A stretch of 44,085 nt of DNA from positions 1-44,085 of IMG/VR virus record IMGVR_UViG_3300046791_000267. The stretch is one strand, 5' to 3'. Each line of letters begins with the position of its first letter. Position 1 is the stretch's first letter. Of this stretch, positions 25,875 through 43,931 are shown one piece after another. The stretch comes from a virus. A program made the position numbers and the translations under genes. The notes beneath the pieces were generated by a model. The model did not search any database, was not told where the DNA came from, and saw only the letters and a program-made list of their open reading frames with translations.

Positions 25875-26006
25875 GGGAAAAGCCTACCGAAGCCCAGGGC
25901 GGAAATCATGGTTTCCTGTGGATAGATCGCGGCTTCGATTACATGCTCGGGGGTGGCGGCGCGCGGTGCGCCGGCCCCGCTCTCCGCGAATCTTTCCAGG
26001 TGTCCC
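25875..26006. promoter_or_regulatory. Divergent regulatory region
   Basis: The 132 bp between the leftward HTH gene and the rightward ParB-like gene. It contains TTTCCTGTGGATAG at 25913-25926: the TTTCCTGT part repeats the upstream block of the right-arm promoters, and TGTGGATAG is 8 of 9 to a DnaA box (reverse strand). A weak rightward promoter would be TGGATA-N17-CATGCT starting at 25919. On the other strand TAGGCT lies just ahead of the HTH start codon. Control by the HTH protein is expected from layout but no operator is proven. Confidence 0.4.
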
Positions 26007-27920
26007 ATGGCCAAAAAGCAAACTGCCGCGAAGCCCGCGGTTCCCCCGCGCGATCTCGAAAACCCGATCCTTGCCAGGCTGCCGCTGGTGAATAGCGTTT
26101 CGATTTCGGCGCCGGGGATCGTGTTCAACCCCGAAAATCCCGCGAAATTTCGCGCCGATTTCGATCAGCTGCGCGAGCTCGTGGCGTCGATCCAGCAGCA
26201 CGGAATCCTGCAGCCCCTGATCGTGCGACAAAAGACGCCAGGAGGGCCGCACGAGCTGATCGCCGGCGAGCGCCGGCTGCGCGCCGCGCGCCACCTGGGC
26301 ATGCTGGAGGTGCCCGCGCTGGTCTATGGGCCGGGCGAGGTGGACGACGCCCGCGCGCTCGAGATTGCGCTCGTGGAGAACATGCACCGCCGGGACCAGT
26401 CCCCCGTGGACGAGGCCGCGGCCTATGCCCTGCTGCGCGATCGGTACGGGTTCACGCTCGCCGATGTGGCCGCCCAGGTAGGCCGGCCGATCTCCCACGT
26501 GCACCGCCGCCTGGTGCTCACCGCGCTGGCGCCGGTGATCGCCGATCTCCTGCGCGCGGGCTGGATCAGCACCGGCGCGGCCGAGCAGTTTGCGCGCCTG
26601 CCCGATGCGAAGGAACAGCTGGAGGCCATTCGCAGGGCCTGGCAATCGGGCGCTGCCGACTGCTGGGGCGATGATCTCGAGATCGATGCAATCCTGCGCG
26701 GGAAGAAAAAGCCCGAGGAGCGCACGATCCTGCAGCCCCTGGGGTTCGCCGATGCGCGCAACGCGGTGGCCGAGATCACCCGCCGGCTGGACGGGGCCCC
26801 CTGGGATCTCGCCGATGCGGCGCTGCTGCCCGAGGCCGGCGCCTGCCTCTCCTGCCCGAAACGTGCCAGCGCCCAGGAAACGCTATTCGGCGCCGATTTC
26901 GGCGCGCCAGAGAGCGAGGATTCCTGCATGGATTCGGCCTGCTGGGGCCGCAAGGCCGTAGCGTTCTCGCTCGCGGCGATTGCCAAGGCGAAGGAAATCG
27001 GCGCCGAGGTGGTCTCGAAAAAGGAATCGGCGCGGCTGTATCCGAACGGCACCTATCTGGCCGACCACGCCCTGCTGGACGTCGATCGCCCCTGCGATCT
27101 GCCTGGCCGGCGCGGCTCGTGGCGCTCGGTGGCGAAGGAAATCCTGCCCGATCTCGAATTGAAGGTGGCCACCGATCGGGACGGTGGCGTGCACACCCTC
27201 GTGGGGAAAAAGGAATTGATCGCGGCCGCGAAAAAATCGGGCCTGATCAAACCCGAGAAGGTGGCCGCGCGGGATTCGGAGAGCGCGCGGCGCGCGAATG
27301 AGCTCGCCGCGGCGAAGGCCCAAAAGGCCCTTGCCGATGCGGTGATCGATCGGGCGCTCGAGAATGAAATCGGATTCGAGGGCCCGGGCAATTCGCGCGA
27401 GGAGACAATCGAGCACGATCTCGGCCTGTGGGAATTCCTCGCCCGCGGCCTCCTCGGCCGAGCTCTGCACGATTCGAAGCGCGAGCTGGCGCGCCGGCAT
27501 TCTCGCAGCCTGCCGGAACCCATGAAAGCCCAGGACGTTTCGGAGCTGCTGCTCGCGGCCCTCGCGGATAACGTCAAGGCGGATCGCGGGCCGCGCCTGC
27601 GGGCGCTGCGCCACCTGTGCCTCGAGGTGATCGCGGCCACGGGAATCAGCGGCCAGGATTACGGTTTCGAATGCGGGGACCTGGGCAATTTCGAATCGGA
27701 CCACGGCCTGGGGCCGGCAGTCGAATGGCTGGCGAGTTTCTGCGAGGTGGATATCGGCAAGGTCCAGAAGGGCCTCGAGGACGAAAAGAAAAAGGCGGCG
27801 GCGAACAAAAAGCCCGCGGCCGCGGTGGTGAAGGCCAAGCCTGCGCGCGCGAAAAAGGCGGCGCGCGGGAAGGCGGCGAAGGTGAAGAAATCAGCGCGCG
27901 GCAAGGCCGCGAAGGATTGA
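26007..27920 (+). CDS. ParB/RepB/Spo0J family protein
   Basis: 637 residues. N-terminal ParB domain: 'LVASIQQHGILQPLIVR' (58-74), the nucleotide-binding GERRLRAA box (87-94), and ENMHRRDQSPVDEAAAY (125-141). A helix-turn-helix follows ('FTLADVAAQVGRPISHVHRRL', 149-169). Further on is a Cys cluster, Cys279/282 and Cys306/311, as in PRTRC-type ParB proteins. The tail (about 595-637) is Lys/Ala-rich and likely binds nucleic acid. The upstream frame is open to 25953, but the ATG at 26007 has an AGG-containing leader. There is no ParA beside it. Roles could be DNA binding for segregation, replication or gene control. Confidence 0.88.
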   Translation: MAKKQTAAKPAVPPRDLENPILARLPLVNSVSISAPGIVFNPENPAKFRADFDQLRELVASIQQHGILQPLIVRQKTPGGPHELIAGERRLRAARHLGMLEVPALVYGPGEVDDARALEIALVENMHRRDQSPVDEAAAYALLRDRYGFTLADVAAQVGRPISHVHRRLVLTALAPVIADLLRAGWISTGAAEQFARLPDAKEQLEAIRRAWQSGAADCWGDDLEIDAILRGKKKPEERTILQPLGFADARNAVAEITRRLDGAPWDLADAALLPEAGACLSCPKRASAQETLFGADFGAPESEDSCMDSACWGRKAVAFSLAAIAKAKEIGAEVVSKKESARLYPNGTYLADHALLDVDRPCDLPGRRGSWRSVAKEILPDLELKVATDRDGGVHTLVGKKELIAAAKKSGLIKPEKVAARDSESARRANELAAAKAQKALADAVIDRALENEIGFEGPGNSREETIEHDLGLWEFLARGLLGRALHDSKRELARRHSRSLPEPMKAQDVSELLLAALADNVKADRGPRLRALRHLCLEVIAATGISGQDYGFECGDLGNFESDHGLGPAVEWLASFCEVDIGKVQKGLEDEKKKAAANKKPAAAVVKAKPARAKKAARGKAAKVKKSARGKAAKD

Positions 27921-28503: not shown

Positions 28504-29457
28504 ATGGGCGCCACCACCACGATCGAATGGACCGATGCAACCTGGAACCCGATCGGCGGCTGCCGGCGGGTTTCACCGGGCTGCCAAAACTGCTACGCCG
28601 AGCGGTTCGCCTATCGGTTCTCGGGCGAGGGCCTGCCTTTCGAGGGCCTGGTGCGCGAAACGGCCCAGGGCCCGCGCTGGACGGGGAAAACCACCCTGCG
28701 CGCGAAATCGCTGGCCTGGCCGCTCTCCGCGCACCCGCGGCGCTGTTTCGTGGCGAGTCTCTCCGACGTTTTTCAGGAGGGCCTCGAGGAGGAAATCTCG
28801 GTGGCGATCTGGGGCGTTATGGCGGCCCTGCCGCGCTGGACGTTCCAGGCGCTCACGAAACGGCCGGCGCGCGCCCTCGAGATTCTCTCGCGCACCACCC
28901 GCGCCGGCGCGCTGGCGGCCGCGGCGCGCCGGCTCGAGGGCCCGCGCGATCGCGCCCGCCTGCAGCGCGCCGAGCACGCGGTGGCGCTGCGCGCCTGGCC
29001 GCCCCCGAACGTCTGGCTGGGAACGTCGGTCGAGGACCAGGAGCGCGCCGAGGAGCGGATCCCGCCGCTGCTCGAGGCGCCGGCGGCGCTGCGTTTCATT
29101 TCGGCCGAGCCCCTGCTCGGGCCGCTCTCTCTCTCACCCTGGCTCTCGCCGCGCGGCGAAACGCCGGCGGTGCTGGGAGCCCCGCACGGGGTGCGCTGGG
29201 TGATCGCTGGCGGCGAGTCTGGGCCTGGAGCTCGGCCGGTGCATCCAGACTGGATCCGAGCGCTGCGCGATCAATGCCGCGCGATCGGCACCGCGTTCTT
29301 TTTCAAGCAATGGGGCGCGTGGGCCCCGAGCAATTTCGAGGTGGAGGGCTCGCGGGTGCTCTCCTGCCCGCACTACGGCCCGGCCCACGTGATCCCCTGG
29401 CGCGCGAACGATATCGGCCGCCTGCTGGATGGCGCGATCTGGAGCGAAACCCCATGA
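28504..29457 (+). CDS. DUF5131 (phage Gp37/Gp68) family protein
   Basis: 317 residues. The N-terminal 'IEWTDATWNPIGGC' then 'RRVSPGCQNCYAERF' gives Cys20, Cys27 and Cys30, the three-Cys arrangement that led others to link this family to radical-SAM-like chemistry. Further hallmarks are 'CFVASLSDVFQEGLEEE', 'WTFQALTKRPAR', 'NVWLGTSVEDQE', 'RFISAEPLLGPL' and 'WVIAGGESGPGARP', and the 'FFFKQWG' motif near the end. The frame opens earlier (28447) but ATG at 28504 follows the previous stop closely. A nucleic-acid modification role is plausible, not shown. Confidence 0.9.
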   Translation: MGATTTIEWTDATWNPIGGCRRVSPGCQNCYAERFAYRFSGEGLPFEGLVRETAQGPRWTGKTTLRAKSLAWPLSAHPRRCFVASLSDVFQEGLEEEISVAIWGVMAALPRWTFQALTKRPARALEILSRTTRAGALAAAARRLEGPRDRARLQRAEHAVALRAWPPPNVWLGTSVEDQERAEERIPPLLEAPAALRFISAEPLLGPLSLSPWLSPRGETPAVLGAPHGVRWVIAGGESGPGARPVHPDWIRALRDQCRAIGTAFFFKQWGAWAPSNFEVEGSRVLSCPHYGPAHVIPWRANDIGRLLDGAIWSETP

Positions 29458-30945: not shown

Positions 30946-31405
30946 AAATACTTCCGTCCCTGTGGACCGCTCGCGCGCCGAGATCGAGCAGCTTATCTCG
31001 AAATTCGGCTGCACGAAATTCGCCACCATGCTGGACGAGCACCACGCGGTGATCGGTTTCGTGGCGCGCGGCCGCGCGGTGCGATTCCTGCTACCGCTGC
31101 CCGATCCGAAGGCCGATCAGTTTCGATTCAAGCTGGATCGGTACAGCTGTAAGAAATTCCGCACCCCCGACCAGGCGCGCGAGGCTTTCGAGCAGGAGCA
31201 GCGGCGCCTGTGGCGCGCGCTGGCGCTGGTGATCAAGGCGAAGCTCGAGGCCGTGGAGAGCGGGATAACCACTTTCGAGCACGAATTCCTCGCCCATTTC
31301 CTGCAGCCCAACGGGATGACGATCGGCGATTCGATAATCCCGAAACTCGACCAGGTGGCCATGGGCAAGGCCACGCCGATGCTGCTCCTCGCCGGGGAAA
31401 CCTAA
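30932..31405 (+). CDS. Conserved phage protein of unknown function
   Basis: 157 residues. 'PVDRSRAEIEQLISKFGCTKFATMLDEHHAVIGFVARGRAVRFLLPLPDP' (residues 10-59), then 'FEQEQRRLWRALALVIKAKLEAVESGITTFEHEFLAHFLQPNGMTIGDSIIPKLDQ', is a pattern I recall from many phage genomes, with alternating strands followed by helices. Function of that family is not known to me. It overlaps both neighbours. Confidence 0.75.
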   Translation: MAFAENTSVPVDRSRAEIEQLISKFGCTKFATMLDEHHAVIGFVARGRAVRFLLPLPDPKADQFRFKLDRYSCKKFRTPDQAREAFEQEQRRLWRALALVIKAKLEAVESGITTFEHEFLAHFLQPNGMTIGDSIIPKLDQVAMGKATPMLLLAGET

Positions 31406-34447: not shown

Positions 34448-34860
34448 CGCGCCTGGACGCGGGAAGGCTCTGGGCTGCGCGACCGTGCATCGAATCCGAT
34501 TCGGAACCGATGCGGATCTGGGGCGGATTCGCACCGCCCAGCGGCTCGCCGGCGGTCCTGATCGTCTCACCGGCGGCCCCTTTCGTTTCACCGCGGCCGC
34601 GAACCGTTCCGCGACCGGCGGGGGGCCGGTTCCTGTTTTTCCTCCTCGGATGAGGCGAAAAAATCGGAAGCCCGCGGACTGTTGGCAACCTGTGGAGAAC
34701 CTGGGGAGAACGCGGCGAGCTCGCTGCAAACTTGCACCCCTCTGCATACGAATGGGAAATCAGAACCCTCTGCCTGCGGCGAGAGCGCCGCGCCGATGAT
34801 CCCTGGCGGCTACTGTTAGAAAATGCTTGCGGCCCTTGTGCGCGCTCGGGGTAAGTAGGT
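34448..34860. promoter_or_regulatory. Noncoding control region, possible origin
   Basis: 413 bp without a convincing gene. Features in order: palindrome CGAATCCGATTCG (34491-34503); two CCGGCGG repeats; GAACCG and CGGTTC arms near 34600-34632; a T-rich TCCTGTTTTTCCT block (34631-34643) like the right-arm promoter upstream block; AAAAAAT (34658-34664); two tandem 11-mers CCTGTGGAGAA and CCTGGGGAGAA (34689-34710), the first containing TGTGGAGAA, 8 of 9 to a DnaA box; TTGCAC at 34732-34737; and a hairpin at 34776-34791. Repeats and AT-rich patches beside a putative replication gene fit an origin or early control region. This is inference. Confidence 0.45.
34732..34760 (+). promoter_or_regulatory. 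Tentative early promoter P0
   Basis: TTGCAC (34732-34737), 17-bp spacer, GGAAAT (34755-34760; 3 of 6 to TATAAT). The -35 hexamer is the same as the right-arm family. Downstream, GCGGCG (34776-34781), loop AGAG and CGCCGC (34786-34791) form a 6-bp hairpin, also like the family. The -10 is weak and the upstream block is not next to it, so confidence is low. Confidence 0.35.
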
Positions 34861-36536: not shown

Positions 36537-36567
36537 AACGGACCCGCGCGGAATTCCTGTTTTTCTG

Positions 36568-36597
36568 TTGCACTTATCACCCAGGGCAGCCGATAGT
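36568..36597 (+). promoter_or_regulatory. Promoter P1 of the right-arm family
   Basis: TTGCAC (36568-36573), 18-bp spacer starting TTATC, GATAGT (36592-36597). Upstream, GAATTCCTGTTTTTCTG (36551-36567) matches the family block. Downstream lies a 7-bp hairpin with its own sequence. It drives the run of small genes from 36644. Confidence 0.7.
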
Positions 36598-36604
36598 GTC
36601 CCCA

Positions 36605-36624
36605 GCGCCGCGATCGTGCGGCGC
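36605..36624 (+). promoter_or_regulatory. 5' hairpin after P1 (variant stem)
   Basis: GCGCCGC (36605-36611), loop GATCGT, GCGGCGC (36618-36624): a perfect 7-bp stem, beginning about where P1 transcripts should start. The sequence differs completely from the P2-P4 hairpin, yet stem length and position are the same. Confidence 0.65.
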
Positions 36625-36643
36625 ACAACCCCCACGGGAACCC

Positions 36644-36973
36644 ATGAATACACGGCAAGCAACGGAACAGAGAATCGCCGGCCTCGTGCTCCAGGCCATG
36701 GTCGAGAGCGGCCGCACAATCCACCTTTCGCTCTGGAGCGATGGAAGCAACGTCGAGCAGGTGAGCGTGGAAAAAGCGCTCGAGCACCTGGCCAGCGTGG
36801 ACGACGAGGTGGTGCGGTTCCGCCTGGACGGCAAGCCCGCCGGCGCGGTGCAGTTCGTTTTCGGAAATGACGGCTGGGATTGCCTGGCCGACTATTCGAG
36901 TTCCCTCGAGGCGCTGCTCGCGCCGGCGCTGGCGGAAGCGGACCGCGCCGAGCGCCAGGCGGTGCGCTCGTGA
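36644..36973 (+). CDS. Unknown early protein
   Basis: 109 residues, first gene after P1, CCCCCAC ahead of the start. Helix 'ATEQRIAGLVLQAMVESGRTIHLSLWSDG', then strands 'DDEVVRFRLDGKPAGAVQFVFGNDGWDCLADYSSSLEALL'. An alpha/beta fold with a 'GNDGWDCLADY' turn, common in small phage early proteins. Function unknown. Confidence 0.65.
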   Translation: MNTRQATEQRIAGLVLQAMVESGRTIHLSLWSDGSNVEQVSVEKALEHLASVDDEVVRFRLDGKPAGAVQFVFGNDGWDCLADYSSSLEALLAPALAEADRAERQAVRS

Positions 36974-37347
36974 TTTCCCTCCCCCCTATCGGCGCCACCG
37001 TGCTCGTGCGCTGGACAGATCGCGCCGGCGAAACCCAGGTGCATTACTATCGCGGAATCTCCGAGAGCGAGGCCGAGCAGGGCTGCGCCGAGGACCATGG
37101 CCGCGAGGGTTCAGGCTTCAAGGCCGTGGAGATTCGGGACGGCAAGGCCCTGAAGCTGGCGCAGCTGTATCTCACCGCGATGGATCGCGCCCGCTCGGCC
37201 ACGCCGGCGAAGCGGCGCGAGAATGCGGCCTATCTGCTGGGCGTCGAGCATTGCGCCGAGATCATGGGCGGAAACCTGCGCGAGGCTTTCGAGCTCCTGA
37301 TCCAATCCACTTGGCCGGCCCTGGAATCGAGGAGCGCCACCCGATGA
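36970..37347 (+). CDS. Unknown early protein
   Basis: 125 residues from GTG overlapping the previous TGA (GTGA); the frame is open upstream but inside the prior gene. 'IGATVLVRWTDRAGETQVHYYRGISESEAEQGCAEDHGREG' is a short beta-barrel-like start, then a helix-rich tail ('KRRENAAYLLGVEHCAEIMGGNLREAFELLIQ'). No family recognised. Confidence 0.6.
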   Translation: MISLPPIGATVLVRWTDRAGETQVHYYRGISESEAEQGCAEDHGREGSGFKAVEIRDGKALKLAQLYLTAMDRARSATPAKRRENAAYLLGVEHCAEIMGGNLREAFELLIQSTWPALESRSATR

Positions 37348-37607
37348 TTCCCACGAAACTCTCGCGCCTGCTGATCGGGCGCACGATCGACTGCTACCAC
37401 CATGGTCAACGGTGCGGGGTGGTGCTCGCCGCGCGCGGCCAGGTGCTCGCGGTGAAATTCCTGGCACCCTATGGGCGCCGCCGGCTTTCGGTCTCGGCCG
37501 TGGTCGGGGTTCACTGGCGCGGGAAAAAGCGCACCCTCGAGGAGTATCTGCAGCTGCGATCCGCGGCGAAGCTGGCGAAGGGCGAGGCCCGGGCGGTGGC
37601 GCGGTGA
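37344..37607 (+). CDS. Unknown early protein
   Basis: 87 residues, ATG overlapping the preceding TGA. 'LSRLLIGRTIDCYHHGQRCGVVLAARGQVLAVKFLAPYGRRRLSVSAVVGVHWRGKKRTLEEYLQLRS' looks like a small beta barrel (SH3-like) with a basic surface and a C-terminal helix. Nucleic-acid binding is possible. No family recognised. Confidence 0.6.
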   Translation: MIPTKLSRLLIGRTIDCYHHGQRCGVVLAARGQVLAVKFLAPYGRRRLSVSAVVGVHWRGKKRTLEEYLQLRSAAKLAKGEARAVAR

Positions 37608-38014
37608 TCAATAACGATTTCTCGCAATTCGATCGGTTCGTGCGGCTGGTGCTCGATCGCACCCTGTGGCCGAAGGACTGGCTGGTAACCCCGGCCTCGA
37701 ATCACTGGCGCGCGGTGGTCGGGTTCGATCCAACGGCACGCGGGCAGCGGCGGCGCGCGATCGTGCCGCGCGGCGATAGCGTGCTGGACAACTCCCCCGA
37801 CGTTTTCGAAATCCGAATTATCTACGACGATCGAGAAAACGGCCGCTCCTGGGGAATGCAGCTCACCCTGCAGCCCGACGAGCTGGATCGATTCCCCGAG
37901 CTCCTGCTGGGGCTGGTTTCCAGGTTTGCGTCGATGATCGCCACGGGTTCCGCGCGATTCGATGGCGTTACCCTGGATGCAATCGCCGAGAGCAAAAGGA
38001 CGGTGCCGCTATGA
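37604..38014 (+). CDS. Unknown early protein
   Basis: 136 residues from GTG overlapping TGA. 'FSQFDRFVRLVLDRTLWPKDWLVTPASNHWRAVVGFDP' then 'VFEIRIIYDDRENGRSWGMQLTLQPDELDRFPELLLGLVSRFASMI'. Mixed alpha/beta, acidic mid-section; no motif recognised. Confidence 0.6.
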   Translation: MINNDFSQFDRFVRLVLDRTLWPKDWLVTPASNHWRAVVGFDPTARGQRRRAIVPRGDSVLDNSPDVFEIRIIYDDRENGRSWGMQLTLQPDELDRFPELLLGLVSRFASMIATGSARFDGVTLDAIAESKRTVPL

Positions 38015-38208
38015 CCCAGGTGGAGACCGCGCGCCGATTCCTGGCGCTGTATCTGAAGGCCGGCCGGCTCGCCGAGCCGGCGCTCGCGCGGCTTCGCCGC
38101 GAGGCGATCGTGCGCGCGGTGCACCAGGCGCAATGCTGGCGCGAATTCCAGGGCCTGCGAAGCGGGCTGGTGGGCTCACGCCACAATGGGGGAACCGATG
38201 GAAACTGA
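38011..38208 (+). CDS. Small helical early protein
   Basis: 65 residues, ATG overlapping the preceding TGA. Helical and Arg/Ala-rich ('VETARRFLALYLKAGRLAEPALARLRREAIVRAVHQAQCWREFQGL'), with a short disordered tail. No family recognised. Confidence 0.55.
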   Translation: MTQVETARRFLALYLKAGRLAEPALARLRREAIVRAVHQAQCWREFQGLRSGLVGSRHNGGTDGN

Positions 38209-38572
38209 GAAAACCGCGGTGCGAATTCCAGCCTGGCCTTCGCCTGAAGGCCTGCGGCTCGCCTGGCTCGGATACTCGGGCCGGGAAACGCCGATCGATC
38301 CGAATACTGATCAGCTGGCCATGGTCCACCTGATCGGCGTGGCGCTCAAAATCGATTTTGCCCTGCGCGACGCCCGCGGGATCCATGCCGATATCGTTTC
38401 CAGGATGAGATCGGAGCTCGAGCTCTCCGCGAATCGCGGCGCCGAGCGCGAGCGCCATGCGTTCTATTGCGGCTATGCCCGCGGATCGGGCGAGGGCAAA
38501 ATCCTGTTGGGCGAGGTGGTGGACCGGCTCGAAACGGCCTGGGCGAAATTCTCCACCGAGGTGCGGCCGTGA
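38198..38572 (+). CDS. Unknown early protein
   Basis: 124 residues from the ATG at 38198, which has GGGGGA seven bases upstream. An ATG at 38186 in the same frame would add four residues but lacks this spacing. It overlaps the previous gene by 11 bases. Helical, with 'EGLRLAWLGYSGRETPIDPNTDQLAMVHLIGVALKIDFALRD' and 'AERERHAFYCGYARGSGEGKILLGEVVDRLETAW'. No family recognised. Confidence 0.6.
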   Translation: METEKTAVRIPAWPSPEGLRLAWLGYSGRETPIDPNTDQLAMVHLIGVALKIDFALRDARGIHADIVSRMRSELELSANRGAERERHAFYCGYARGSGEGKILLGEVVDRLETAWAKFSTEVRP

Positions 38573-38700
38573 TCGCCTGGGTGGTGCTCGGCTGCCTGGT
38601 TCTGTGGGCGCTCGAGATCGTGGCTTTTCTGGTGGGCCTCGTCTGGTCCTACCGTGAATCCGAGCGTGAGGAGCGCGGGGAGGGTATCCCCCATGCCTGA
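38569..38700 (+). CDS. 43-residue single-span membrane protein
   Basis: GTG overlaps the preceding TGA (GTGA), and the stop overlaps the next gene's start region. Residues 2-26 are a membrane segment ('IAWVVLGCLVLWALEIVAFLVGLVW'), followed by a charged tail (YRESEREERGEG). Small overlapping phage membrane peptides of this type are often toxic or regulatory, but nothing specific is shown. Confidence 0.55.
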   Translation: MIAWVVLGCLVLWALEIVAFLVGLVWSYRESEREERGEGIPHA

Positions 38701-39082
38701 GCATAGAACCCTGCAGGACTGGCGCGAGCGCTGGCAGCAGGCCCTGCGCAACGCGGTGGCCAAGGGCGACACCGAAGTGGGCTGCGATTCCTGGCGTCAA
38801 GGATTCCGCGATGGCTGCACCCACGTGGAAATCGAATTCGACAAATTGCGGGCCGATGCTGCCACGAAAAACGGCGTGGAGGCGGCCGAGCGGCGGGTGC
38901 TGGATGCCTGCCTCGCCGAGGTTCGGGCGATCGATGCGAAGCGGGCGCTGCCCCTGCAGCCCGGCCTGATTACCGCGATGTACGACACCCAGCGGGAAAG
39001 GGTGACGGCCGTTCGGGCGCTGCAGCGGCTGCTCCGCGATCGTGGAGGCGAGGCCCCGAAAGATTCCGCCCAGATTTCCTAG
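38693..39082 (+). CDS. Unknown helical early protein
   Basis: 129 residues; ATG at 38693 has a GGGGAGGG ribosome binding site at good spacing, preferred over a GTG at 38654. Nearly all helix ('LQDWRERWQQALRNAVAKGDTEVGCDSWRQGFRDGCTHVEIEFDKLRADAATK', 'ERVTAVRALQRLLRDRGG'), with possible coiled coil in the middle. It ends just before promoter P2. Confidence 0.6.
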   Translation: MPEHRTLQDWRERWQQALRNAVAKGDTEVGCDSWRQGFRDGCTHVEIEFDKLRADAATKNGVEAAERRVLDACLAEVRAIDAKRALPLQPGLITAMYDTQRERVTAVRALQRLLRDRGGEAPKDSAQIS

Positions 39083-39089
39083 TTTCCTA

Positions 39090-39118
39090 TTGCACTTATC
39101 CACCAGGGCGCCGATAGT
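39090..39118 (+). promoter_or_regulatory. Promoter P2 of the right-arm family
   Basis: TTGCAC (39090-39095), 17-bp spacer that begins TTATCCACC (8 of 9 to a DnaA box), GATAGT (39113-39118). Upstream block GATTTCCTAGTTTCCTA (39073-39089). The transcript should begin at about 39125, at the base of the downstream hairpin. Confidence 0.75.
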
Positions 39119-39124
39119 GATCCT

Positions 39125-39143
39125 GTGCAGCATGGAGCTGCAC
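39125..39143 (+). promoter_or_regulatory. 5' hairpin with ATG in the loop (P2)
   Basis: GTGCAGC (39125-39131), ATGGA, GCTGCAC (39137-39143): a perfect 7-bp stem with a 5-base loop that begins with ATG. From this ATG an 11-codon open frame (M-E-L-H-P-T-G-P-P-R-K) stops at TGA 39165-39167, overlapping the gene's ATG at 39164. The same hairpin occurs at P3 and P4. Confidence 0.7.
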
Positions 39144-39163
39144 CCAACAGGACCCCCACGAAA

Positions 39164-39775
39164 ATGACGCCCACCGCAACCCAGCCCGCCGCCATCGCAA
39201 TCTCGAGCATCCTGCGCGTGATCGATACCCGGGAATGGATCGAAGGCCCCGATGATCGCTGGGTGGCCGTGGCCGGCTCGGGGATTCTGCGCAGCTGCGA
39301 TCGATGCGGCCGCGCGCATGAGGTGCACGCCTACGTGCTGCTCTCCAGCGGCGCCGAGGCCGTGGTGGGCACCGGGTGCATGAAGGGCGATTCGCTCGAG
39401 ATCGGTAAGGCCATGGCCAGGGCCGAGCGCCGCGCGAAAACCCTGGCGCGGCTTACCTTCGAATTGAAGGGCGCGCGCGAGGCTCTCGCGCAATGGGACG
39501 CCCAGCGTAAGGCCGTCGAATCCATGGTGCCCCCGGCCTTCGAAAACGATTTCGTGCAGCGCGTCCAGCGCGATCAGGCGCCGATTCCCATGGTTCGCCT
39601 GGGCAGCGCTTGCATCTGGCACCGCACCGTGGAGACCCTCACCGAGGATGATCGCCGCTACCTGGTGAGCCGGTGGCACGATTCGAAAATGCAGGAGCTG
39701 GGGCTCCGCTCGCGGCCGAATCACCTGGTGACCGAGCTCGAGCGGCGGCTCGAGCGCGCCCAGGATCTGGCGTAG
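39164..39775 (+). CDS. Zinc-binding unknown early protein
   Basis: 203 residues. The ATG at 39164 is chosen over an in-frame GTG at 39125, which would lie in the 5' hairpin. 'RSCDRCGRAHEVHAYVLLSSGAEAVVGTGCMKGD' (residues 44-77) has a CxxC and a later Cys with a His, a zinc-type fold seen in many phage early proteins. The middle is a long helix ('AMARAERRAKTLARLTFELKGAREALAQWDAQRKAVESM'). Function unknown. Confidence 0.65.
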   Translation: MTPTATQPAAIAISSILRVIDTREWIEGPDDRWVAVAGSGILRSCDRCGRAHEVHAYVLLSSGAEAVVGTGCMKGDSLEIGKAMARAERRAKTLARLTFELKGAREALAQWDAQRKAVESMVPPAFENDFVQRVQRDQAPIPMVRLGSACIWHRTVETLTEDDRRYLVSRWHDSKMQELGLRSRPNHLVTELERRLERAQDLA

Positions 39776-39792
39776 GCCTGGAGGCCGGCCCC

Positions 39793-40083
39793 ATGAAAAC
39801 GCCTACAGCACCGATCGCCGGCGGCCAGGTGGCCGCCGCGGCCTGGTCTAAAACCGAGAAATGGCTCGCCTGGTCCCTGATCGACGCCCAGCACAACGGG
39901 ATCAGCGCGCCCGAGCTGCACCGGCAATGCTCGCGCGAGCTCGGGCTCGAGGCCCCGAGCCGGCGGGACGTCGATCGAATCCTGCGCCGGCTGCGCGAGC
40001 ATGGTCTGGCGCGCACCACCGGCTGGGCGAAGGCCGCGCGCTGGTTCGGAAACCTGAAGGAAATCCGCGAGGCCACCCTGTGA
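39793..40083 (+). CDS. Small winged-helix-like protein
   Basis: 96 residues with GGAGG ahead of the ATG. 'KTEKWLAWSLIDAQHNGISAPELHRQCSRELGLEAPSRRDVDRILRRLREHGLARTTGWAKAARWFG' is the winged-helix pattern with a basic recognition helix (RRDVDRILRRL) and a short wing. A DNA-binding regulator is likely. Target unknown. Confidence 0.65.
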   Translation: MKTPTAPIAGGQVAAAAWSKTEKWLAWSLIDAQHNGISAPELHRQCSRELGLEAPSRRDVDRILRRLREHGLARTTGWAKAARWFGNLKEIREATL

Positions 40084-40352
40084 ATACGCCGATGACGCCC
40101 GACGAAACCACGCCCGAGATCACCAGCGCCGAGCAGGCGCAGACGCTGCGCGCGCCGGCGGCGCTGCGCGCGCGGCTCGAGATCCTGGAGCAGACGGCCG
40201 CGGAGATCGTGAGCACCGCCGGCAGGCTGCGCGGCACCTGGCAGAACGTGGGCCTGGCGGAAACGGCCGTGCGGCAGCTGCTCGATATTGCGCTCGCCCT
40301 GCGCGCGATCGGCGCCCGCGAGCATGCGAAGCGTAAGGCCAGGATCCGATAG
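40080..40352 (+). CDS. Unknown helical protein
   Basis: 90 residues from GTG overlapping the preceding TGA; ATG at 40092 is an alternative. Acidic start, then helix ('ALRARLEILEQTAAEIVSTAGRLRGTWQNVGLAETAVRQLLDIALALRAI') with a basic tail. No family recognised. Confidence 0.55.
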   Translation: MNTPMTPDETTPEITSAEQAQTLRAPAALRARLEILEQTAAEIVSTAGRLRGTWQNVGLAETAVRQLLDIALALRAIGAREHAKRKARIR

Positions 40353-40507
40353 CGGGGTGGGAGGAGCTCCAGGTTCCGACTCCCACGGAACCGCCAGCGT
40401 GCACCTGGGCGTTTTCCCCTGCCGCGCTGCCGCCGGCCACTGCCGGCCTGGAGGTGCGCCGATTCTGGCACGGCCGGCGGGGCCTGGCAAGATTTCGTAT
40501 TTTCCTG
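40353..40507 (+). other. Intergenic region ahead of P3
   Basis: 155 bp. It contains GTGGGAG (40355-40361) and CTCCCAC with a loop in between, a possible terminator-type hairpin without a T-run, and a second GC arm pair near 40430-40452. It ends in the P3 upstream block GATTTCGTATTTTCCTG (40491-40507). Confidence 0.35.
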
Positions 40508-40536
40508 TTGCACTTATCCAACGGGCGGCCGATAGT
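40508..40536 (+). promoter_or_regulatory. Promoter P3 of the right-arm family
   Basis: TTGCAC (40508-40513), 17-bp spacer starting TTATCCA, GATAGT (40531-40536), upstream block GATTTCGTATTTTCCTG. Ahead of the PP-loop gene. Confidence 0.75.
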
Positions 40537-40542
40537 GATCCT

Positions 40543-40561
40543 GTGCAGCATGGAGCTGCAC
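40543..40561 (+). promoter_or_regulatory. 5' hairpin with ATG in the loop (P3)
   Basis: Identical to the P2 hairpin: GTGCAGC, ATGGA, GCTGCAC. Here the loop ATG (40550) is in frame with the gene start at 40580, so translation from the loop would add ten residues (MELHPRGPTK). Confidence 0.7.
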
Positions 40562-40579
40562 CCAAGAGGCCCCACGAAA

Positions 40580-41536
40580 ATGACGACCGAAACGAAAACG
40601 CCCGCACCCTTCCGCCGGATCGAGGATGGCCGCTCCCCGCTCGTGGTCAATTTCGGCGGCGGGGTGGACTCGACGGCGATCCTGGTTCGACTGGTCGAAA
40701 TGTTCGAAGCTGGCGATGCCACCGCCCGGCCCGATCTCGTGCTGTTCGCCGATACGGGTTCGGAGCTGCCGGAAACCTATGAGAACGTGGCGCGGGTTTC
40801 GGCCTATCTCGAGCTCCATGGATTCCCCCGCGTTACCACGGTTTCGCGGCCGGCGAACATTCCCGGCCGCGCAGGGTATCGGACCCTCGAGGAAAACTGC
40901 CTGGTGAACGAGACCCTGCCGGGCGAGGCCTTTGGCCGTGGAAACTGCTCCTGCAAATGGAAGCACGAGCCCATGGACGCATTTCTGCACGGCCGGCAGC
41001 GGCCGCTGCGCGCAGGCTGGCTCGAGCTTCATGGGTTCGCCGGGGAAAAACCCGTCAAGCTGATCGGATACGACGCCACCGAGACCCTGAAGGGCAAGCG
41101 CGGCGCGAGCGCGCGCGAGAATCTCGAGGACGCCACCGCGAAATACCGCTATCCGCTGGTGGAATGGGGCTGGACCCGCGAGCGCTGCGAGCAGGCGATC
41201 CGCGCGGCTGGCCTGCCCAGCGTGGTGAAAAGCGCTTGTTTTTTCTGCCCGAATCAAACCACCTGCGAGCTGCGCGCGATGGCCGAGAGCTCGCCCGCGC
41301 TGGTCCTGCGCGCGCTGGTGATCGAGGAGGTGGCGCGCCGCGGGAAACACGGCCTGCAGATCGAAGGGCTCTGGCGGCGCACCAGGAAATCGGACGGCCG
41401 TTCGGGCTCCTGGGTGGAATGGGCGAGGGCCGAGGGCCTGCTCGAGAAAATCGAGGCCGCGGTGGGCTGCACCCTCGAGCAGGCCGTGCTGGCCGCGAAA
41501 CCCGAATGGGCGCCGGTGGAGATCGCGGCCGCCTGA
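40580..41536 (+). CDS. PAPS reductase-like PP-loop protein
   Basis: 318 residues. NFGGGVDSTA (residues 24-33) is the ATP pyrophosphatase PP-loop. 'PDLVLFADTGSELPETYENVARVSAYLE' follows. Cys123/Cys125 in GNCSCKWK and Cys220/223/229 in ACFFCPNQTTCEL could hold an iron-sulfur or zinc site. Proteins of this family activate substrates by adenylation in sulfur or nucleotide chemistry; phage versions are common and mostly uncharacterised. The start at 40580 has AGAGG ten bases before; the loop ATG at 40550 is the alternative. Confidence 0.88.
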   Translation: MTTETKTPAPFRRIEDGRSPLVVNFGGGVDSTAILVRLVEMFEAGDATARPDLVLFADTGSELPETYENVARVSAYLELHGFPRVTTVSRPANIPGRAGYRTLEENCLVNETLPGEAFGRGNCSCKWKHEPMDAFLHGRQRPLRAGWLELHGFAGEKPVKLIGYDATETLKGKRGASARENLEDATAKYRYPLVEWGWTRERCEQAIRAAGLPSVVKSACFFCPNQTTCELRAMAESSPALVLRALVIEEVARRGKHGLQIEGLWRRTRKSDGRSGSWVEWARAEGLLEKIEAAVGCTLEQAVLAAKPEWAPVEIAAA

Positions 41537-41560
41537 TCGCCGCGCCGGCCCTGCTGGGCC

Positions 41561-41576
41561 CTCGAAAGATTTCGAG
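41561..41576 (+). terminator. Small palindrome after the PP-loop gene
   Basis: CTCGAA (41561-41566), AGAT, TTCGAG (41571-41576) pair over 6 bp, with GGATTTCC following. It could be a weak terminator for the upstream gene, but the T-run is short and shared with the P4 upstream block. Confidence 0.3.
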
Positions 41577-41595
41577 CGGATTTCCTAGTTTCCTG

Positions 41596-41624
41596 TTGCA
41601 CTTATTCCAACAGCGGCCGATAGT
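41596..41624 (+). promoter_or_regulatory. Promoter P4 of the right-arm family
   Basis: TTGCAC (41596-41601), 17-bp spacer starting TTATTCCA, GATAGT (41619-41624). Upstream block GATTTCCTAGTTTCCTG (41579-41595) is the same as P2 except the last base. Confidence 0.75.
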
Positions 41625-41630
41625 GATCTT

Positions 41631-41649
41631 GTGCAGCATGGAGCTGCAC
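41631..41649 (+). promoter_or_regulatory. 5' hairpin with ATG in the loop (P4)
   Basis: Same GTGCAGC-ATGGA-GCTGCAC hairpin. The loop ATG (41638) is in frame with the gene start at 41668 and would add MELHPTPNPT. No Shine-Dalgarno precedes 41668 (only CAACCCCCAACCCCACC). Confidence 0.7.
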
Positions 41650-41667
41650 CCAACCCCCAACCCCACC

Positions 41668-42075
41668 ATGGCGCTCTCCACCACCACCCGGCTCTCCACC
41701 CTCTCCCGCGAAATCACCCTGAACGGCCAGGCCTACCTGGTCGAGGGTTCGCCCGATCCGTTCTGCGCCACCCAGCGCATTTTCCGCGCCTGGACGGCCG
41801 GCGATTTCATGGGGCGCCACCACGTGATCACCACCCGGGAAATTCCCGGCGGCCGCGGCTGGTTCGGTCTGGTGGGAACCGAGCTCGATCGGGAACGGTA
41901 CGATCACCTGGAAGGCGGATCGGCCGCGCGAATCGAGGCCGTGCGCGCAGCGCTCGCCGATCGCGCTCTCGAGGCTCGCGCGGCGATCCTCGCGGCCTTC
42001 CCCGAGGTGGGCGGCTGCGAGGCCGATGGTGCTTTCCGCTCGGCCTATGAGATCGCCAGCGCGGTGGTCCTGTGA
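41668..42075 (+). CDS. Unknown early protein
   Basis: 135 residues from 41668; the loop ATG at 41638 is an in-frame alternative. 'LSREITLNGQAYLVEGSPDPFCATQRIFRAWTAGDFMGRHHVITTREIPGGRGWFGLVGTEL' is beta-rich, then a helical tail ('ARIEAVRAALADRALEARAAIL'). No family recognised. It overlaps the next GTG by four bases. Confidence 0.6.
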   Translation: MALSTTTRLSTLSREITLNGQAYLVEGSPDPFCATQRIFRAWTAGDFMGRHHVITTREIPGGRGWFGLVGTELDRERYDHLEGGSAARIEAVRAALADRALEARAAILAAFPEVGGCEADGAFRSAYEIASAVVL

Positions 42076-42419
42076 GATCCCCCACGATTTCGAAGGCCCA
42101 GCTGGCGGCGGCCGGCTGGGCCCGCTCGGATGACCCCGCCCACCGCAGCAAATTGACCGCGCGCTACCAGCATGCGGCCGGCTGGACGATCGAGCATTGC
42201 GGCCACTCCACCGCGATGCACCCCTATCTGGTGCGCGATCCCAAGGGCCGGGTGGTGCTCACCGGCGCGGCCCACGGGCAGCGCCGGCCGGATTTCGGCA
42301 CCGCGTGGTGGAACCTGGACCAGATTGTGCGGTGGATGGCCACGCTCGACGCCCACGAGCTCGAGCATGGCCTGCGCTGGTTCGAAATCCCGGGGAACCG
42401 CCCGCGCCTGTTGGATTGA
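42072..42419 (+). CDS. Unknown early protein
   Basis: 115 residues from GTG overlapping TGA. 'YQHAAGWTIEHCGHSTAMHPYLVRDPKGRVVLTGAAHGQRRPDFGTAWWNLDQIVRWMATLDAHELEHGL' is a conserved-looking pattern with several His and Cys; a helical end follows. It is a common kind of small phage early protein. Function unknown. Confidence 0.65.
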   Translation: MRSPTISKAQLAAAGWARSDDPAHRSKLTARYQHAAGWTIEHCGHSTAMHPYLVRDPKGRVVLTGAAHGQRRPDFGTAWWNLDQIVRWMATLDAHELEHGLRWFEIPGNRPRLLD

Positions 42420-42458
42420 CGATTCCGTGACGTCGAGCCCCAGCGTATGCTCGTGCCC

Positions 42459-42803
42459 ATGAGCACGAAAAATCCCGAGCCGGCCGCGCCCCAGGGCGCG
42501 GCCGCTCCTGTTGGCGCATCCCAGGCCGTGGCCGAATCCGTGAAGGTGGGGGACCGGATCAAGGTCCGCGTGGTGGTGGGCGGCCCGGCGATCGCCACGG
42601 TGGAGGCCGTGGTGCTGAAGGTGCACAAGGCCGCGCCGGCCGGGAAGGCCGGCGGCCCCTATCTCGATCTGGAATTCACCGGGCGCGAGGGCCTCACCTG
42701 GACCGCGGAAACCGTGGGACCGGAACCGCCCGAGGGCGCGAACCTGAATAACCTGCAGGGCCAATCCTTCCCCTGCTGGGCGCGGACCCCCGCGCCGAAG
42801 TAG
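42459..42803 (+). CDS. Unknown protein with central beta barrel
   Basis: 114 residues from ATG 42459; ATG 42447 is an alternative. First 35 residues Ala/Pro/Gly-rich; then 'VKVGDRIKVRVVVGGPAIATVEAVVLKVHKAAPAG' and 'LDLEFTGREGLTWTAETVG', short strands of a barrel. No family recognised. TATGCT (42445-42450) lies just ahead and may be a -10-like element. Confidence 0.55.
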   Translation: MSTKNPEPAAPQGAAAPVGASQAVAESVKVGDRIKVRVVVGGPAIATVEAVVLKVHKAAPAGKAGGPYLDLEFTGREGLTWTAETVGPEPPEGANLNNLQGQSFPCWARTPAPK

Positions 42804-42806
42804 GCC

Positions 42807-43511
42807 GTGGGCCTGGTCGAGATCAGCGTGGGCACGAATGCCGCGCAGCTCTCGGTGATGCTGCGCGATTTCACGTTTTCCCAGCTGCCTTTCGCCACCG
42901 CCACCGCGCTCACCCGCGTGGCGCAGGACTCGCGCGAGGTGGTGGTGCGGGCGATGCCCCAGCATTTCAAAATCCGCTCAAAACGGGTTCTGAAAACGGT
43001 TCGGGTGGAGCGCGCCGAAAAACGGGACTGGCCGCACCCCGCGGCGAAGGTGGGGATTCTGGACCAGTTCATGGCCATTCACGTGACCGGCGGCCAGAAG
43101 GTCCCCCAGAAGGGCGCGGCCCATATTGCGGTTCCGACTTCGCTCGTGCATCGCCGGCCGAGCGGCTCGATCCCGCCGGGCATGAAGCCCAGGGCGCTGC
43201 GCGATCGCCCCGACGTTTTCACCACCGATCGGGCGATCAATAAGCGGCTCGATCGTGCCCGCGGCCGGCTCCAGAACCTGGGGGGCGTGGGACGGTTTTT
43301 CACCCTGGTGACGTCGGCGAAAATCGAATCCACCTGGCCGATGCCGCTCGAGGTGGAGCGCACCGCCCAGGCCACCTACCAGAAGCATTTCGAGCGCGAG
43401 CTCACCGCGGCGATCAAATCGGCGCGGGTTCGGGCGGGCCATTTCACGAGCGAACAGGGCAGGGCCGCCTACCTGGCCAAGCGGGTGGGACTGGGCCGGA
43501 TCGGCGAGTAG
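42807..43511 (+). CDS. Possible virion morphogenesis protein
   Basis: 234 residues from GTG, 3 bases after the previous stop. 'LRDFTFSQLPFATATALTRVAQDSREVVVRAMPQHFKIRSKRVLKTVRVERA', then 'FMAIHVTGGQKVPQKGAAHIAVP' and a helical C-terminus, is a pattern I recall from phage minor tail/head completion-type proteins (gpZ/gp10-like). If so, a structural gene is separated from the other head and tail genes but close to terminase across the ends. No membrane segment. Confidence in role is low. Confidence 0.5.
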   Translation: MGLVEISVGTNAAQLSVMLRDFTFSQLPFATATALTRVAQDSREVVVRAMPQHFKIRSKRVLKTVRVERAEKRDWPHPAAKVGILDQFMAIHVTGGQKVPQKGAAHIAVPTSLVHRRPSGSIPPGMKPRALRDRPDVFTTDRAINKRLDRARGRLQNLGGVGRFFTLVTSAKIESTWPMPLEVERTAQATYQKHFERELTAAIKSARVRAGHFTSEQGRAAYLAKRVGLGRIGE

Positions 43512-43543
43512 CACCTGGGCCTGGCGCGAATCCTGTTTTCCTG

Positions 43544-43572
43544 TTGAGACTATCCAGGCCGGCCGCCATACT
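43544..43572 (+). promoter_or_regulatory. Promoter P5 of the right-arm family
   Basis: TTGAGA (43544-43549), 17-bp spacer starting CTATCCA, CATACT (43567-43572). Upstream block GAATCCTGTTTTCCTG (43528-43543). It diverges from P2-P4 at the -10 and is followed by two smaller GC palindromes rather than the GTGCAGC hairpin. Confidence 0.6.
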
Positions 43573-43573
43573 T

Positions 43574-43603
43574 CAGCAGGCGCTGCGAGGAGCGGCGCCG
43601 CTC
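43574..43603 (+). promoter_or_regulatory. 5' palindromes after P5
   Basis: CAGC-AGGC-GCTG (43574-43585) is a 4-bp hairpin, and GAGCGGCGCCGCTC (43590-43603) is a perfect 14-base palindrome. They occupy the same place as the hairpins behind P1-P4. Confidence 0.45.
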
Positions 43604-43628: not shown

Positions 43629-43931
43629 ATGCCCACCGCCATGAAGCGCCAGGCGCGCAAGATTCCCACGCCGGCCAAGCCCTCCAAGCCTGCCCGCGCA
43701 CCCAAGGCCACCGCCAAGCCCGCCGCGGCCGCTCCTCGAGCTGCACCGGAGGAAAAGCGGGGCCCAGGCCGCCCGCCGCTGGAGGGCGGGGAGGGCCGCC
43801 CCTATTCGATCTACATGGACCCCGGCACCCGCGGGCGGGTTCTCAACTGGGCCAGCGTGCTGGGCACGGGGATCTCCGAGGCTTTCCGTCGCATGGCCGT
43901 AGCCGCTGGCGATCCCCCGGCCGCGAGCTGA
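43629..43931 (+). CDS. AT-hook / ribbon-helix-helix-like DNA-binding protein
   Basis: 100 residues. The first 50 are Ala/Pro/Lys-rich with an AT-hook-like core KRGPGRPPLE (residues 43-52). 'RPYSIYMDPGTRGRVLNWASVLGTGISEAFRRMAVAAG' (57-94) is a ribbon-helix-helix pattern (strand, helix, turn, helix). It lies alone under P5 next to the terminal region. It may regulate or condense DNA. ATG 43641 is an alternative start. Confidence 0.6.
   Translation: MPTAMKRQARKIPTPAKPSKPARAPKATAKPAAAAPRAAPEEKRGPGRPPLEGGEGRPYSIYMDPGTRGRVLNWASVLGTGISEAFRRMAVAAGDPPAAS

Follow-up and report, generated by a model that had tools for sequence, protein, structure and literature searches.

How the right arm of this phage genome is switched on is the question raised by five intergenic elements, here called E1 to E5, that lie ahead of its gene blocks. 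The window referred to below is the whole stretch that was analysed, the 44,085 nucleotides of IMG/VR record IMGVR_UViG_3300046791_000267, and it belongs to a contractile-tailed phage whose tail sheath is related to that of Mu. The original prediction described five regions of common layout that act as a promoter-like control family, and five such regions do align with one another there. Their parts are as follows.

E1, 36551..36624, plus strand: T/C block, TTGCAC, 18-bp spacer, GATAGT; stem GCGCCGC-GATCGT-GCGGCGC; hairpin leader -19.1 kcal/mol; CCCCAC 8 nt before the ATG at 36644; left-out score 34.0 bits; fronts 36644-39082.
E2, 39073..39143, plus strand: T/C block, TTGCAC, 17-bp spacer, GATAGT; stem GTGCAGC-ATGGA-GCTGCAC; leader fold z = -2.94; CCCCAC 4 nt before the ATG at 39164; left-out score 38.2 bits; fronts 39164-40352.
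E3, 40491..40561, plus strand: layout of E2, 17-bp spacer, stem-loop identical to that of E2; leader fold z = -2.39; left-out score 39.9 bits; fronts 40580-41536.
E4, 41579..41649, plus strand: layout of E2, 17-bp spacer, stem-loop identical to those of E2 and E3; leader fold z = -2.16; left-out score 36.6 bits; fronts 41668-43511.
E5, 43527..43600, plus strand: diverged copy, TTGAGA, 17-bp spacer, CATACT; 8-bp stem GGCGCTGC-GAGGA-GCGGCGCC with one G-U; leader fold z = -1.67; CCCCAC 1 nt before the ATG at 43629; left-out score 28.2 bits; fronts 43629-43931.

The recurrence of these five copies is real and far above chance. The left-out scores come from a leave-one-out PSSM over a 26-nt core (T/C block, -35 and TTATCC), in which each copy is scored by the matrix from the other four; the same PSSM gives at most 15.1 bits for the best non-element site in the window and at most 13.1 bits for shuffled maxima. 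A covariance model that has the elements themselves among its input, run over the whole window, matched E1-E5 and nothing else (74-94 bits); model R1 was built on an RNAalifold structure that places a spurious 4-pair helix alongside the real stem. Exact-word searches, with words picked post hoc in the original prediction, have zero occurrences expected by chance. One further site, at 25902, lies in the intergenic stretch that precedes the ParB-like gene (25953-27920); it was rejected as a copy, since its 11 bits fall inside the shuffle range.

The elements are homologous, aligning over about 70-95 bases within a module of roughly 100 bases. The right arm (36.5-44.1 kb) has five long gaps, and each is taken up by one element; the rest of the window has none. 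All point the way the genes are transcribed and lead into a closely packed block of genes, and the T/C block of E2 reaches into the stop codon of the preceding gene, which ends at 39082. E2-E4 are near-identical and E5 is clearly the most diverged, so that the family amounts to about three independent versions (E1, E2-E4 and E5) rather than five. Copying of the element within the genome is clear, at least for E2-E4. The genes that follow are as unrelated as had been claimed, with no paralogy among the downstream proteins (best E = 0.12).

36644..39082, plus strand, behind E1: eight packed small genes forming an ORF chain, with overlaps mostly of 4-8 bases.
39164..40352, plus strand, behind E2: three small genes.
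40580..41536, plus strand, behind E3: a single PAPS-reductase-like gene (phrog_424, E = 3.6e-22).
41668..43511, plus strand, behind E4: four genes, the last (42807-43508) a minor-tail-protein relative (phrog_1924, E = 3.9e-21).
43629..43931, plus strand, behind E5: one gene of 100 aa.

Few of these products can be named. The sole clear match in the E1 block is phrog_4158, itself annotated as of unknown function, and the others are weak; the E2 block genes gave zero matches in Pfam and PHROG, and a winged-helix reading of the gene at 39793 was dropped, with no family match and a low-confidence structure model. The PAPS-reductase-like protein has a homologue, 71% identical, in one IMG/VR contig. 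The gene behind E5, once read as a ribbon-helix-helix protein, does not bear that reading out: no Pfam or PHROG match was found and the structure model is of low confidence (pLDDT 65).

Every element carries two TTYCCT-like words 8 bp apart, followed by a TTGCAC or TTGAGA -35 (the latter in E5), a spacer of 17-18 bp (18 nt in E1 and 17 in each of the others) and a -10 of the form xATAxT. The predicted TTGCAC-like -35 and spacer length are thus present throughout, and the GATAGT-like -10 is found in E1-E4 and replaced by CATACT in E5. Less remains of the TTATCCA word proposed for the start of the spacer, which is exact in E2 and E3 only and reads TTATCAC, TTATTCC or CTATCCA in the rest; since it is not kept as an exact word, the common core is YTATY. 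Against the sigma70 consensus, which may differ from that of the host, E1-E4 match at 7/12 positions and are missed by a generic scan, and E5, at 9/12, is called by it as one of only two sigma70-like matches in 20 kb. Both hexamers of E5 are changed, yet its -10 keeps ATA-T and its -35 has five of six consensus bases. When E2, E3 and E4 are compared, 12 spacer bases differ at 4-8 positions and the -35, -10 and hairpin are unchanged; a spacer of fixed length whose bases drift between constant flanking elements is the pattern expected of a promoter. One copy fronts every right-arm gene block and carries an upstream block beyond what a minimal sigma70 promoter holds, as originally proposed, and E1-E5 are most likely promoters for the host sigma70-type polymerase with an upstream helper block, whose mRNAs would begin with a 5'-terminal hairpin.

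That hairpin is the other constant of the module. An inverted repeat had been predicted where the transcript should begin, and in all five elements a stem of 7-8 bp closing a 4-6 nt loop begins 6-7 nt after the -10. Stems of at least 7 bp (with no more than one G-U and loops of 3-8) fall in a register of this kind, 2 nt wide, at 0.8% of window positions; because three independent versions carry one, chance is very unlikely (about 6e-7 if they are independent). All five sequences pair along the whole stem (100%), and at two positions both partners have changed (U-A to C-G, and A-U to C-G or U-G). This covariation lies above every slid control and is equalled by only 8 of 500 shuffles, though with only about three independent versions it is thin. 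Alternative pairings are also possible in the E2 and E3 leaders, and an Rfam search of the element matched no family. If the promoter reading is right, the first base of the stem stands at or near +1 in all five, which is where a stabilising 5'-terminal hairpin would be expected.

The leaders share one more feature. CCCCAC lies 1-8 nt before the start codon in all five element-led genes, as had been noticed; of the 46 other genes in the list just one has it there, and the plus strand of the window holds 18 copies in total. Like the other words, it was picked post hoc. The word is not SD-like, and a 4-base SD word is present in two of the five leaders.

On balance, these features are probably best explained if E1-E5 are paralogous transcription-start modules, one per block, that jointly switch on the 17 genes of the right arm. 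The host's RNA polymerase, carrying its principal (sigma70-type) sigma factor, would bind the -35 and -10. The T/C block would help it, whether by giving the alpha subunit an UP-like contact or by binding an activator, a role suggested by the weak -35 of E1-E4. Transcription would start at the first G of the stem, so that the mRNA opens with a 7-8 bp hairpin, and the start codon would follow about 40-55 nt downstream, right behind CCCCAC. Such a hairpin may shield the end from 5'-end-dependent decay and give short operons stable messages. Stabilisation of mRNA by 5'-terminal stem-loops has been reported in works cited in PMC3997798, and the B. subtilis RppH requires unpaired 5' nucleotides (PMC3997798).

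It is possible, rather than probable, that the promoters are activator-dependent in the manner of middle-type promoters, with a phage protein on the tandem TTYCCT words recruiting polymerase to a poor -35. MotA in T4 and Mor/C in Mu are activators of this kind. The -35 of E1-E4 has only three of six consensus bases and the conserved block lies directly upstream of it, the words recur 8 bp apart and agree at 4-6 of their 8 bases, and the phage has the Mu-related sheath. That said, six-frame searches of the genome gave no match to Mor (PF08765) or Ogr/Delta (PF04606) when positive controls matched, and the block is 53-65% A+T in a genome of 68% G+C, which by itself fits an UP-like element. This reading is compatible with the preferred one, where the helper may be an activator or UP-like. 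The earlier suggestion of a second protein bound to the block and to TTATCCA is a possibility, no more: TTATCCA fails to recur as an exact word in every copy, and the searches reveal no regulator of the Mor, Ogr/Delta or HTH_3 type.

More tentatively, the inverted repeat could be a DNA operator through which a phage repressor or activator dimer controls the five promoters as a regulon, the RNA hairpin being a by-product. A palindrome across the start site is the classical position for a repressor. Not one base of the stem-loop differs among E2-E4, whose adjoining spacers have diverged, and this exceeds what a purely structural hairpin needs; moreover, the arms fit GYGCHGC in all five, and among the phage's own proteins a ParB-like one contains an HTH domain. 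The copies are not uniform as DNA, however: the centre is 6 nt in E1 and 5 in the others, and the E5 G-U pairs in RNA but breaks the DNA palindrome. Nor was an HTH_3 regulator found in the genome, which also gave no match to a tyrosine integrase. A broader version, which we regard as rather unlikely, makes the stem-loop a signal in its own right: a single phage factor would recognise it in RNA or in DNA form, and promoter, 5' hairpin and CCCCAC would work jointly as one regulon; we know of no combined transcription, stability and translation cassette that has been described as a unit.

Near-identical 95-base copies beside unrelated gene blocks are also the layout expected if the elements were mobile promoter/stem-loop cassettes like the T4 PeSLs, whose main role is the shuffling of gene blocks by homologous recombination. 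We consider this distinctly improbable. No terminator-like stem lies ahead of the promoter, and the collections searched hold neither a relative with a rearranged arm nor a copy elsewhere: none was found among 2.9 million IMG/VR contigs, GTDB contigs, 50,697 phages and 72,556 plasmids, nor in the loci of 115 relatives, terminase-related prophages included. A search for a close relative with which to compare the arm found none, the nearest terminases being about 54% identical. Model matches of 16-20 bits at four loci (L164, L165, L167 and L169) were judged chance hairpins, because L165, the one read out, sits inside a coding frame without a -10, and seven IMG/VR matches to a relaxed word came from A+T-richer contigs with no promoter or hairpin. 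The notion of a spreading cassette thus holds for copying inside the genome, at least for E2-E4; with no copy in any collection searched, spread beyond the phage is unsupported.

A role of the hairpin as an RNA regulator, its loop AUG (E2-E4) or loop GGA (E2-E5) being read by ribosomes or a CsrA-like protein, seems highly improbable. Stem and loop are fixed in E2-E4, GGA is present in four of five loops, and the position and frame of the loop AUG are suggestive: the E2 AUG begins a frame of 11 codons that terminates in a stop overlapping the real start, and those of E3 and E4 share the frame of the gene. But the frame relation differs between E2 and the other two, the E1 loop has neither AUG nor GGA and that of E5 no AUG, CCCCAC marks the later ATG in all five, and Rfam offers no match. 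Binding of the TTATCCA word by DnaA or another replication protein can be dismissed as scarcely credible, since E2 fits the DnaA box TTATCCACA at 8/9 positions but the other four copies have 2-3 mismatches to it.

Other viruses are already known to carry control modules of this sort. The T4 PeSLs, or promoter-early stem-loops, were reportedly described by Arbiol et al. in 2010 and by Comeau et al. in 2014, the latter under a title that is said to call them promoter-terminator composites. As summarised in PMC4503421, which cites the work, T4-type PeSLs pair a repeated intergenic host-type early promoter with a stem-loop in regions of intense gene shuffling. E1-E5 likewise repeat a promoter and stem-loop between unrelated genes; compared with that summary, they differ in that the stem lies downstream of the -10, at +1, without a T-run, and no shuffling is seen. 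A terminator scan finds no upstream terminator of the PeSL type in the element gaps, nor do the elements share a stem on the upstream side of the block. In the haloarchaeal tailed virus HGTV-1, a promoter-like box and inverted repeat precede most genes of one arm (PMC3950731), an arrangement that resembles E1-E5, although there the promoter is archaeal and TATA-box-like, the host is different and far more genes are covered.

Repeated intergenic motifs, some of them with inverted repeats, also lie just upstream of the start codons of unrelated genes in mycobacteriophage cluster K (SAS/ESAS) and in Microbacterium phage clusters EF, EC, EG and EI (PMC3203893, PMC7302621). SAS is a 13-bp word placed where ribosomes bind and ESAS consists of 17-bp inverted repeats, with no promoter described in either, whereas the unit in E1-E5 is promoter plus leader; no 13-bp GGGATAGGAGCCC-like word was found at the ribosome-binding position, and the word that goes with their start codons is CCCCAC, which is not SD-like. 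T4-like early promoters recur many times in one genome, with an A-rich, UP-like block at -40 to -44, a T kept at -7 and an A kept at -11 (PMC1524935), and in these respects they are like E1-E5; their hexamers are different, and a hairpin at +1 is not described in that paper. The ompA and papA leaders carry a stabilising stem at the mRNA 5' end, with measured half-lives in works cited in PMC3997798; as reported there they are single host genes, unlike this five-copy phage module, whose own 5' stem is predicted from sequence.

E1-E5 suggest how a contractile-tailed phage that is otherwise unknown can control, from several copies of a single module, a right arm made up of uncharacterised small genes. 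That the hairpin sits at the predicted first base and carries compensatory changes offers a testable case in which promoter and mRNA-stability signals would be copied by phages as a pair, and the five elements make a well-defined addition to the functionally little understood class of PeSL and SAS/ESAS elements.

The five intergenic regions singled out in the original prediction do share one layout. Four of them (E1-E4) can be aligned across 50-95 bases, with identity of about 80-92% among E2-E4, and the fifth, E5, scores 28.2 bits on a matrix made from E1-E4 only, compared with 15.1 for the highest-scoring window site outside the elements. E5 is a diverged yet significant copy. All five lie on the + strand and occupy the only long gaps in the right arm; gaps of more than 60 bases elsewhere in the window contain no element.

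36551-36624, + strand: E1, gene start at 36644
39073-39143, + strand: E2, gene start at 39164
40491-40561, + strand: E3, gene start at 40580
41579-41649, + strand: E4, gene start at 41668
43527-43600, + strand: E5, gene start at 43629
E2 layout, upstream part: T/C-rich block GATTTCCT AGTTTCCT A, -35 TTGCAC, spacer TTATCCACCAGGGCGCC, -10 GATAGT, GATCCT
E2 layout, downstream part: stem-loop GTGCAGC ATGGA GCTGCAC, leader with CCCCAC, ATG

The gene blocks behind the elements hold about 8, 3, 1, 4, and 1 genes, with intergenic gaps so short or negative that each element would drive one operon. No paralogy was found among the proteins of the five blocks, in keeping with the claim that these genes are unrelated. 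The word CCCCAC, which is not Shine-Dalgarno-like, is found no more than 30 bases from the start codon of all 5 element genes, vs 1 of 46 others, and the window's + strand has only 18 copies in total.

The spacer is 17 bp in E2 and 18 in E1, and its 12 inner bases differ at 4, 8, and 5 positions among E2, E3, and E4. These three elements have an identical 19-base stem-loop and unchanged -35 and -10 hexamers; since the spacer drifts while these parts hold, constraint is concentrated in the block, hexamers, and stem-loop. In E5 the -35 is TTGAGA in place of TTGCAC, closer to consensus, and the -10 is CATACT in place of GATAGT, with the key A and T kept.

All five elements have a 7-8 bp stem whose first base is 6-7 nt past the -10, where the transcript is predicted to start; a stem of this kind in this position has a chance of 0.8% per element, with three independent versions represented. 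All 35 of 35 cells in the hairpin alignment pair, and two of the seven pairs are altered on both sides. In slid alignments pairing did not exceed 64%, and the covariation score was reached by 8 of 500 shuffles.

The reading we lean toward, by a modest degree, is that a host sigma factor would recognize these promoters with help from the upstream block, and that the mRNAs would start with a 5' hairpin slowing decay that depends on the 5' end. That E1-E5 form a promoter family is likely, the RNA hairpin is reasonably probable, and stabilization as its purpose is tentative; these last three gradings are judgements rather than computed values. An activator protein bound to the block is a rival that overlaps this reading, which leaves the nature of the helper open. 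In another, the inverted repeat is an operator dyad at +1. Both the longer loop of E1 and the G-U pair of E5 point to RNA rather than a DNA dyad, but the loops of E2-E4, being identical, still allow for recognition of the sequence. The remaining rivals were a recombination cassette and an RNA switch. The loops of E2-E4 contain an ATG (39132, 40550, and 41638; MELHP...). In E3 and E4 it shares the frame of the gene, and in E2 it starts a frame of 11 codons with a TGA that overlaps the start codon of the gene. It is probably incidental, because it is absent from E1 and E5 and because CCCCAC goes with the later ATG in every element.

The window (a virus record of 44,085 bases, 67.7% G+C) belongs to a contractile-tailed phage, as marked by a Mu-type tail sheath, a terminase (phrog_15), and a ParB-like protein. 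The closest terminases are about 54% identical, and genomes with related terminases are mostly from Acidobacteria and Proteobacteria; the right arm has no near match among GenBank phages. Two middle genes, 28504-29457 and 30962-31405 (phrog_2045 and phrog_17260), are 42-48% identical to genes of mostly Mycobacterium or Gordonia phages, whereas the terminase and the sheath belong to the proteobacterial/Mu type, making this a mosaic genome. The PAPS-reductase-like gene at 40580-41536 has a homologue of 71% identity on a viral contig of 156 kb; there the start codon is directly preceded by a 9-bp inverted repeat. Elsewhere in the window, the long non-coding gap at 34448-34860 carries TTCCTGTTTTTCC and tandem CCTGTGGAGAAC/CCTGGGGAGAAC words and is a possible origin or control region, and direct repeats 69-83% alike (23758-24426) lie within the gene at 23663-24610, towards the end of the structural region.

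Exact and relaxed word searches of viral_contigs and genome_contigs, with the words alone or combined with the -10, found no true copy, nor did BLAST against phages and plasmids. A covariance model was run on 116 sources, namely the window plus 115 loci that surround related terminases, PAPS reductases, or one middle gene; outside the window its matches were at chance level only. The original observation is sound and its interpretation partly so: a family of promoter-like modules is supported, and spread beyond this genome is not supported by these searches. At about 50% protein identity, a lack of copies in relatives is no refutation of function, and from sequence the five elements are best described as repeated promoter/leader modules that form a set specific to this lineage.

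The compared loci contain repeats of their own. A conserved 38-40 base word, CATGACGATTCATCACTCCGG...CCGGAAGGCAAG, is paired upstream of the terminase in three of them; Rfam gave no match for it in L131 or L106, and it could be a structured RNA or boundary element.

L131 8878-8915 and 9457-9494: CATGACGATTCATCACTCCGG...CCGGAAGGCAAG pair
L128 8865-8903 and 9458-9496: CATGACGATTCATCACTCCGG...CCGGAAGGCAAG pair
L106 3373-3412 and 3953-3992: CATGACGATTCATCACTCCGG...CCGGAAGGCAAG pair
L161 8073-8105, 8847-8878, and 9922-9953: CATGAACGCGCTGTTCG...GAAGCCAAGCG word

This last word, similar but distinct, occurs in about three copies each in L161, L166, and L174 (Lysobacterales, Burkholderiaceae), with one copy immediately 5' of the terminase in L161 and L174; Rfam gave no match for it in L161 or L166. 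Directly repeated tRNA pieces in L124 (140-188, 2005-2053, and 2783-2829), L136, L192, and L195 are probably prophage attachment sites.

Modules of this kind are already known. The T4 promoter-early stem-loops (PeSLs; cited in PMC4503421) are repeated units of the same sort. E1-E5 work like PeSLs, but a scan of their gaps found no terminator, and for that reason they are not classed as such. In HGTV-1, a promoter box with an inverted repeat likewise stands before most of the genes in one arm (PMC3950731), and comparable repeated motifs include the SAS/ESAS of mycobacteriophage cluster K (PMC3203893) and several in Microbacterium phages (PMC7302621). Repeated promoter-like intergenic units, unrelated in sequence to E1-E5, also precede genes in L183 (TTGACT..TAATGT; 2082-2160 and 3545-3623) and L039 (TTGACA..TACCTT; 3766-3881 and 5495-5611), which suggests that the habit is common. 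The module set is of an ordinary kind, though neat in its form.
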